DNA of 64,000 bases from Streptomyces tardus (GTDB taxonomy: Bacteria > Actinomycetota > Actinomycetes > Streptomycetales > Streptomycetaceae), in NCBI RefSeq assembly GCF_018101125.2, contig NZ_JAELVF020000001.1:4435962-4499961 (forward strand), in the 5' to 3' direction. Position numbers and translations under genes: made by a program. The notes below the pieces were generated by a model. That model searched no databases and was not told the origin of the DNA. It saw only the letters and a list, made by a program, of their open reading frames with translations. Positions 1,252 to 2,426 of the stretch are shown piece after piece; the stretch's first letter is position 1, and every line of letters begins with the position of its first letter.

Positions 1252-1383
1252 GCAGCGGAGGGGAGTATTCCCCTCGAGCGGCGTCCTCGTCAGTACGGTC
1301 GGCCATCCGGCCCGGGGAGTCGGCCCGGTAGCCAGTTGGTGCGGCCGGGTGGAAGAGACCTCCGGCTGCTGATGCCGGAGGAG
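1252..1383 (+). promoter_or_regulatory. yybP-ykoY-type (Mn2+) riboswitch in the terC leader
   Basis: The leader has the family hallmarks: GGGGAGTA at 1260-1267 on the 5' side, CGTCAGTACG around 1288-1297, and GAGACC at 1355-1360 on the 3' side. The closing stem pairs 1252-1261 with 1359-1369 (GCAGC/GCTGC plus the GGAGG/CCTCC extension, with one bulged G at 1364). Immediately downstream, TCCGGC (1361-1366) is complementary to GCCGGA (1374-1379), which overlaps the ribosome binding site GGAGGAG (1377-1383). The two structures share 1361-1366 and exclude each other, so ligand-bound aptamer should free the RBS. yybP-ykoY RNAs are known Mn2+ sensors often found before TerC-family transporters. Identification is by eye. 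Confidence 0.8.
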
Positions 1384-1391
1384 TGTTTTCC

Positions 1392-2426
1392 GTGGATGTG
1401 TCCATGGCCGTATGGGTGCTGACGATTCTTGGTCTGTGCGCCCTGATCGCCGTCGATTTCTTCATCGGCGGTCGCAAACCGCACGAGGTGTCCCTCAAGG
1501 AAGCCGGCACCTGGACGGTGGTCTGGATCCTGCTCGCTGTCGCCTTCGGCGTCGGGCTCTTCGTGTTCGGCAACGCCCAGGCCTCGGGTGAGTTCTTCGC
1601 CGGCTATGTGACCGAGAAATCGCTCAGTGTCGACAACCTCTTCGTCTTCGTCCTGATCATGACGAAGTTCGCGGTGCCCTCGATCTACCAACAGCGGGTG
1701 CTGATGGTGGGTGTCCTGATCGCCCTCGTCCTGCGCGCGATCTTCATCGCCATGGGGGCCGCGATCGTCTCGACCTTCTCCTGGGTCTTCTTCATCTTCG
1801 GTGCCTTCCTCATCTGGACCGCATGGAAGCTGATCAAGGAAGCGCGGGCCGGCGAGGAGGACGAGGAGTACGAGGAGAACCGCTTCCTGAAGCTGGTGGA
1901 GCGCCGCTTCCCCTCCACCGAGGACTATCGGGGCACCAAGCTCGTCGTCGTGGAGAACGGCAAGCGGCTGATCACGCCGATGCTGATCGTCATGCTGGCC
2001 ATCGGCAGCACAGACGTGCTCTTCGCCCTCGACTCGATCCCCGCGATCTTCGGTCTGACCCAGGACCCGTACATCGTCTTCACCGCCAACGCCTTCGCCC
2101 TGATGGGCCTGCGCCAGCTCTACTTCCTCATCGGCGGTCTGCTGAAGAAGCTCGTCCACCTCGCCTACGGGCTCTCGATCATCCTCGGCTTCATCGGCGT
2201 CAAACTGGTGCTGCACGCGCTGCACGAGACCGGCGTGCACGTGCCGGTCATCAGCATCCCGGTCTCGCTCGCCGTGATCGGCGGCGTCCTGGTGGTCACC
2301 ACCGCGACGAGCCTGTGGGCCAGCAAGAAGCAGTCCGAGGCCGAGGCCGAGAAGAGCGACGGGGACAACGGGGACAACGGGGACAACGGTGGGCAGGACC
2401 GCCAGCACGAGAGCCTCCCCTCGTGA
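1392..2426 (+). CDS. terC: TerC-family integral membrane metal (Mn2+) exporter
   Basis: TerC proteins are multi-spanning membrane proteins linked to tellurite resistance and Mn2+ efflux. Start chosen at GTG 1392: it lies 8 nt after the GGAGGAG at 1377-1383, whereas the GTG at 1383 overlaps that site. Product 344 residues. It opens with a hydrophobic span (VWVLTILGLCALIAVDFF), contains the family signatures EKSLSVDNLFVFVLIM and STDVLFALDSIPAIFG with conserved acidic residues inside membrane helices, and has about seven or eight membrane spans. The hydrophilic C-terminal tail has three GDN repeats encoded by a 9-bp tandem repeat. The riboswitch upstream makes metal-controlled translation likely. 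Other Ter-family genes occur in this window (TerD at 50878) but are not adjacent. Confidence 0.93.
   Translation: MDVSMAVWVLTILGLCALIAVDFFIGGRKPHEVSLKEAGTWTVVWILLAVAFGVGLFVFGNAQASGEFFAGYVTEKSLSVDNLFVFVLIMTKFAVPSIYQQRVLMVGVLIALVLRAIFIAMGAAIVSTFSWVFFIFGAFLIWTAWKLIKEARAGEEDEEYEENRFLKLVERRFPSTEDYRGTKLVVVENGKRLITPMLIVMLAIGSTDVLFALDSIPAIFGLTQDPYIVFTANAFALMGLRQLYFLIGGLLKKLVHLAYGLSIILGFIGVKLVLHALHETGVHVPVISIPVSLAVIGGVLVVTTATSLWASKKQSEAEAEKSDGDNGDNGDNGGQDRQHESLPS
2361..2387 (+). repeat. 9-bp tandem repeat, three copies, in the terC 3' end
   Basis: GGGGACAAC occurs three times without interruption and encodes Gly-Asp-Asn repeats in the cytosolic or external tail. The unit is a multiple of three, so copy-number change would keep the frame. 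Confidence 0.85.

Follow-up and report, generated by a model that had tools for sequence, protein, structure and literature searches.

The leader of a terC/alx gene of Streptomyces tardus is very probably a yybP-ykoY Mn2+ riboswitch of the E. coli alx subtype, through which the translation of an Mn2+ transporter of the TerC/Alx type would be regulated. The gene lies in a stretch of 64,000 nucleotides, here called the window, and all the parts of its leader described below are, like the gene, on the forward strand. Homology, a conserved and covarying structure, invariant bases at the metal site and the mutually exclusive pairing of one strand support this reading directly. That the ligand would be Mn2+, and that it would turn the gene on, is what is suggested by the invariant bases of L1 and L3, the full-length match to alx and the presence of an Alx-family gene downstream. 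According to the published accounts, the yybP-ykoY class, its link to terC and to tellurium-type transporter genes, and the terC leader of C. glutamicum are already in print or in databases. What is new is the size of the blind spot of Rfam, together with the recurrent loss of the aptamer core, and the leader in the window is an unlabelled member of the class.

The gene, its aptamer and the presumed metal site

The terC/alx gene occupies positions 1392–2426, with GTG 1392 as its likely start (the mechanical list of reading frames begins at 1383) and with the Shine–Dalgarno sequence GGAGGAG at 1377–1383. Its product matches TerC in a Pfam profile search (E 5.1e-55) and scores 386 bits, for a cut-off of 246, with the NCBIfam family TIGR03718, R_switched_Alx, a name that we read as pointing to the yybP-ykoY riboswitch; E. 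coli Alx is 37% identical to it. Upstream, a possible −10 element noticed by eye (TATGCT, 1241–1246) would place the transcript start, unproven, near 1252, and a consensus scan reported no promoter. CTTTACC(T/A) repeats, a possible promoter or operator, were seen by eye 5′ of many leaders among the loci L001–L080; none was seen by eye in the S. tardus window.

The yybP-ykoY-type aptamer, 5′ of this gene, spans 1256–1364 and has the layout of its class, with a P1.1–L1–P1.2 leg and a P3.1–L3–P3.2 leg that meet at the P4 junction. The first-pass annotation, made from the letters of the window, had drawn a closing stem between 1252–1261 and 1359–1369, and this stem is indeed there, in two parts: P1.1 pairs 1256–1261 (CGGAGG) with 1359–1364 (CCUCCG), and a strain-specific extension pairs 1252–1255 with 1366–1369, leaving G1365 bulged. 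Next come the 5′ side of L1 (GGAGUAU, 1262–1268) and P1.2, whose strand UCC (1269–1271) pairs with GGA at 1351–1353, a helix that is paired in all 79 leaders of our alignment. P3.1 joins 1279–1289 to 1313–1322 with one mismatch, G1283 opposite A1318, and leads to the seven-nucleotide bulge L3 (UCAGUAC, 1290–1296) and to the P3.2 hairpin (GGUCGG-CCAU-CCGGCC, 1297–1312). The P4 hairpin, of variable length, takes up 1324–1349 (its outer pairs were counted), and the 3′ strand of P1.2 with the 3′ side of L1 (AGAGA) lies at 1351–1358, as placed by the leader alignment and the pair counts. Because P2 is not clear, we describe the junction as three-way; the crystal structures reported for the class have a four-way junction, and a three-way form is described in one literature account.

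The DNA of 1235–1410 has matches in 52 of the 61 genomes of the genus, its own included, and the folding of 1240–1400 as a single sequence gives z = −2.65, with 1 of 200 shuffles equally good. Our alignment was drawn from 109 loci, which reduce to 78 distinct leaders once five duplicates and 26 loci without the core are set aside; with the window it counts 79. Across these leaders the 28 aptamer pairs are 96.6% paired, those of P1.1 99.8%, and there are 77 doubly changed cells as against 20.1 in shuffles and at most 38 in slid versions, with 10 of the 28 pairs doubly changed as against 5.3 in shuffles. As the Rfam family RF00080 matches neither this leader nor those of 17 relatives, a covariance model of our own, R1, was trained on 39 streptomycete terC leaders picked for variety among the 79. 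In the rows outside this model (71, of which 70 are distinct), 24 of the 28 pairs are changed on both sides, and doubly changed cells number 367, where shuffles give 105.5 and no slid version exceeds 54, this second alignment being fitted to the structure, so that its counts lean towards it. Helix by helix, four of the six pairs of P1.1 are doubly changed outside the model, where P1.2 has a UA/CG exchange; five of the six pairs of P3.2 are changed on both sides among the 79 leaders, and both strands of P3.1 covary inside and outside the model. Conservation and pairing counts across the leaders thus place these pairings beyond chance.

According to the crystal structures reported, the ligands of Mn2+ are phosphates from both L1 and L3 together with the N7 atom of a single adenosine that never varies (A48 in X. 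oryzae, A41 in L. lactis), and the published L3 bases read A46-x-A48-U49-A50-C51-U52 and U39-C40-A41-x-x-U44-C45 (x, base not named). Going by these quoted base numbers, A1292 would be the counterpart of the Mn2+-binding A41 and A48, and the pair just below L3 would be that of the A-minor receiver, C44=G66. L3 reads UCANYAC in 78 of the 79 leaders and CCANYAC in the remaining one, with C2, A3, A6 and C7 found in 79/79 and U1 in 78/79. Outside the genus, in 61 rows from 60 places (one place being counted twice, and 55 places having terC), U1, C2, A3 and C7 recur in 61/61 and A6 in 59/61. The third base, that of the presumed metal contact, is A in 79/79 leaders, in 71/71 rows outside the model and in 39 of 40 further, mostly weaker, matches. 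L1 behaves in the same way, GGAGUA and GAGA both being present in 79/79 leaders and, outside the model, in 71/71 and 68/71 rows respectively, and the pair below L3 is C–G in 79/79 leaders and, among the 71 outside rows, C–G in 65 and G–C in 6.

A fold of this kind might nevertheless respond chiefly to a signal other than Mn2+, be it a divalent ion such as Ca2+ or an alkaline pH: reportedly, the alx riboswitch senses alkaline pH besides Mn2+ (PMC9603457), a Streptococcus yybP-ykoY element is said, in a secondary account, to bind Ca2+ too (PMC9495176), and some of the relatives found with R1 precede Na/Ca exchangers and P-type ATPases. Yet the adenosine that contacts Mn2+ through its N7 never varies in the 79 leaders, and the gene belongs to the Alx family, reportedly implicated in Mn2+ efflux (PMC10550928), which makes another main signal quite unlikely; Mn2+ is the ligand that we retain, with alkaline pH possibly acting as an additional signal. 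Compensatory changes across the phylum, the full-length alx match and the invariant loops of the metal site make it more improbable still, indeed very improbable, that the leader was conserved without any metal sensing, for example as a protein-binding site or a DNA element, even if the upstream CTTTACC repeats of many relatives, noted by eye, hint at further regulation.

One strand for two folds

The 3′ strand of P1 has a second possible partner. Positions 1359–1366 (CCUCCGGC) also pair with 1374–1381 (GCCGGAGG), an anti-P1 strand that holds most of the Shine–Dalgarno sequence, in a hairpin of eight pairs with its loop at 1367–1373, and this shared strand can be seen either as the 3′ strand of P1 or as the strand that hides the ribosome-binding site. 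A hairpin over the GGAGGAG of terC, incompatible with the closing stem, was the core of the first-pass annotation. It is present, with eight pairs where six had been claimed; the ribosome-binding site is indeed engaged in it, and the mutual exclusion is confirmed by the common strand, since the six bases on the 3′ side of P1.1 are all taken up by the hairpin.

The eight pairs of the hairpin are intact in all the 626 cells of the 79 leaders that have both letters, and, being nearly invariant, they display no covariation within streptomycetes. Since covariation of the hairpin cannot be obtained inside this group, we turned to other genera, where each P1 3′ strand was compared with its own anti-P1 strand. 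Of 60 loci, 35 showed a match of at least seven pairs, while the rate was 26.4% for 3150 foreign pairings and 6.4% in shuffled DNA, a comparison to be read with the caveat that CCUCC strands partly match any Shine–Dalgarno sequence; at loci with unusual P1 strands, the own match is found in 11 of 21, against 168 of 1199 foreign pairings. An anti-P1 run of at least seven was not found in 25 of these 60 other loci. As far as the sequences tell, the P1 5′, P1 3′ and anti-P1 strands tend to vary in concert, which is what mutually exclusive pairing requires.

Left unconstrained, RNAalifold picked the OFF fold, made of the hairpin over the ribosome-binding site and of a second hairpin from the 5′ strand of P1, with P1 itself absent. 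A second alternative pairing belonging to this fold joins 1257–1260 to 1268–1271 (GGAG with YUCC), and each of its four pairs is present in at least 78 of the 79 leaders. The OFF form is computed to lie below the P1 form by 10.5 kcal/mol over 1252–1404, by 15–16 kcal/mol on a shorter stretch, and by a median of 11.8 kcal/mol when the complete aptamer is imposed on each of the 79 leaders, these folding energies excluding tertiary contacts and bound metal. With the OFF form favoured by 10–16 kcal/mol, a choice made during transcription is more plausible than one made at equilibrium, and the selection between the two folds is likely to be co-transcriptional.

The switch may be pictured in the following way. 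As long as metal is absent, 1359–1366, on the 3′ side of P1, would pair with 1374–1381, hiding the Shine–Dalgarno sequence, and 1257–1260 could pair with 1268–1271. Mn2+ would bridge L1 (1262–1268 and 1354–1358) and L3 (1290–1296, with A1292), so that P1 would stay closed, the Shine–Dalgarno sequence would be left free and terC would be translated.

The same aptamer could in principle act on transcription, with the hairpin of 1359–1381 and a U-rich tail working as an intrinsic terminator. The hairpin of S. tardus is followed by AGUGUUUUCC and was flagged as terminator-like in the window; the L. lactis switch is reported to work on transcription (PMC9190785), and at the UPF0016 locus L117 a T run can be made out by eye at a long hairpin. 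S. tardus belongs, however, to a group of 3 leaders among 79 that have such a T run (at least five T in eight) behind the hairpin, the other 76 streptomycete leaders being without it, while the 3′ arm of the hairpin is the Shine–Dalgarno sequence and the first NTG comes four bases further on in 62 of the 79. A terminator is thus an unlikely explanation, and we prefer translational control because the T run is found in only 3 of the 79 leaders: it is presumably translation, rather than transcription, that the leader of terC commands.

A subtype that probably escapes the Rfam model

The covariance-model search by which the first-pass annotation proposed to check its aptamer gave nothing: RF00080 of Rfam 15 has no match in the leader of the window, at either threshold tried, and by its gathering score, 45 bits, this leader does not count as an RF00080 match. 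Nor was there a match at 17 other streptomycete loci, and the other Rfam families that came up near the leaders, in the scans of the window and of these 17 loci, are chance matches only. Two outcomes had been named as speaking against the proposal, a missing match and stem pairs that are not conserved among Streptomyces leaders; the former came true, while the latter did not, as the 96.6% pairing given above attests.

The silence of RF00080 says little of the leader, because the same model has no match at E ≤ 1 in the E. coli alx leader (L218:376–499), a reported Mn2+ riboswitch, and puts the E. coli mntP leader at 41.6 bits, under its own cut-off of 45. R1 matches the alx leader with 45.3 bits, end to end (model positions 1–110, the next best in 4.7 kb scoring 10.8), and gives mntP 7.3 bits only, from which it follows that R1 and RF00080 detect different subtypes. 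With this full-length match, added to the covariation and to the invariant bases of L1 and L3, the yybP-ykoY-like aptamer proposed at terC is borne out. R1 also recovers 9 of the 11 weak RF00080 loci of Actinomycetes, at 34.8–51 bits and outside its training set; the RF00080 matches L122 and L124, without an R1 match, look like chance. At the 26 terC loci that lack the core, R1 found nothing.

RF00080 matched 11 of 296 Actinomycetes genomes, none above its cut-off. R1 matched 239 of 394 Actinomycetes genomes, in 83 of 137 genera (E ≤ 0.01), and, in a draw across the phylum, 53 of 296 genomes (E ≤ 0.001), 33 of these 53 being outside the class; these three surveys are separate draws, with strict filters in all, and the matches of the two class surveys were counted without individual review. 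The strict filters, which apply above 40 genomes, affect the R1 counts: the genomes G079 and G292 went unmatched in the survey of 394, yet R1 finds their RF00080 loci, L115 and L119, directly. All this suggests that Mn2+ riboswitches of the alx subtype go unseen by the current Rfam model and, if they do, Mn2+ regulation in Streptomyces and its relatives is under-annotated.

Among 60 R1 matches outside the genus, chosen from the best that were listed, 55 precede terC, four (in one bacterial family) proteins that resemble one another and one a PGPGW protein. Forty further, mostly weaker, matches divide by tblastn into 19 with TerC, one with UPF0016 and 20 with neither (two of these last being incomplete loci); eight of these 20 loci were scanned, and they contain three P-type ATPases, three Na/Ca exchangers and two M50 peptidases. 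At L222 and L243 the M50 (site-2) peptidases that follow the aptamer have CBS domains, and at L193 the PGPGW transmembrane protein (PF09656) is encoded by a reading frame about 135 bases past the start of the match. At L166, L205, L206 and L210 the aptamer stands 5′ of a protein of about 290 amino acids with a Pro/Gly-rich middle and a Gly/Ala-rich hydrophobic end; the two that were scanned (L166 and L210) have no Pfam or NCBIfam match, and genes of this type are candidate Mn2+-regulated genes of obscure function.

We considered a strict correspondence between the type of L3 and the downstream gene and rejected it, as bulges of the UCA type are found, too, 5′ of genes for P-type ATPases, Na/Ca exchangers and M50 peptidases. 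UPF0016 loci carry ACAYACU, all but L219 having been selected by RF00080, which favours that type; L3 is ACAYRCU in 9/9 of the RF00080-matched loci, with the same bias. L219, in the Streptomyces genome G131, is an ACAYACU-type element 5′ of a UPF0016-like gene, with a terC-type match elsewhere in that genome, and L119, of the same type, is the sole element found in Streptomyces G292.

The core itself is not always kept. Among the best 80 terC loci from a scan of 417 relatives, the full core is present in 54, and nine of those best leaders retain both arms of P1 as well as the anti-P1/Shine–Dalgarno hairpin, with some 10–35 bases (lengths by eye) that replace it. Seven were labelled by script (L014, L020, L021, L025, L037, L043 and L073); L003 and L031, which the script had scored as having none, were relabelled core-less by eye. 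On the TerC tree this label requires at least four changes, losses and regains counted together. The obvious reading of such sequences is that a core-less leader would no longer switch and would give a constant output. One might go further, and imagine that the alx and actinobacterial terC leaders, with UCANYAC in L3, form a subclass that responds at a metal or pH level of its own, apart from the ACAYACU of mntP and UPF0016, and that streptomycetes repeatedly excised the core, but neither P1 nor the platform hairpin, and so converted the switch into a fixed setting; this is a speculation, and we hold it to be rather doubtful.

The leader among known systems

That such switches are seldom studied in actinomycetes, as the first-pass annotation had it, calls for a qualification: at terC (cg2157) of C. 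glutamicum a yybP-ykoY leader is reported, with RNA-seq support (PMC3890552). Among the titles listed by a search of open-licence papers, none is on a Streptomyces terC leader, which is weak evidence; PMC6754395, PMC2211319 and PMC3766115 were also drawn upon. The C. glutamicum leader, which precedes the same gene in the same phylum, is likened to ours by description, not by sequence, and the control genomes with an RF00080 match (Rfam 15) do not include C. glutamicum.

The actinobacterial UPF0016 leaders (L116–L118, L120, L121 and L123) share the layout and score 40–49 bits with R1, but their L3 is ACAYACU and another transporter family lies downstream, an assignment made by an ELGDKS-like motif; RF00080 matches these leaders weakly. 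The mntP leader of E. coli, which is RF00080-like, has the borders GGGGAGUAGCC and GAGACC visible, and differs by an L3 of the ACAUACU kind as well as by its low R1 score. The E. coli alx leader, which gives the subtype its name, is reported to belong to the yybP-ykoY class and to respond both to Mn2+ and to alkali (PMC9603457). The streptomycete leader is GC-rich, and has another P4 and another hairpin around the ribosome-binding site, but the two have in common a full-length R1 match, an L3 of the UCANNAC type (UCAUUAC in alx), the GGAGUA and GAGA of L1, and a downstream gene of the same family.
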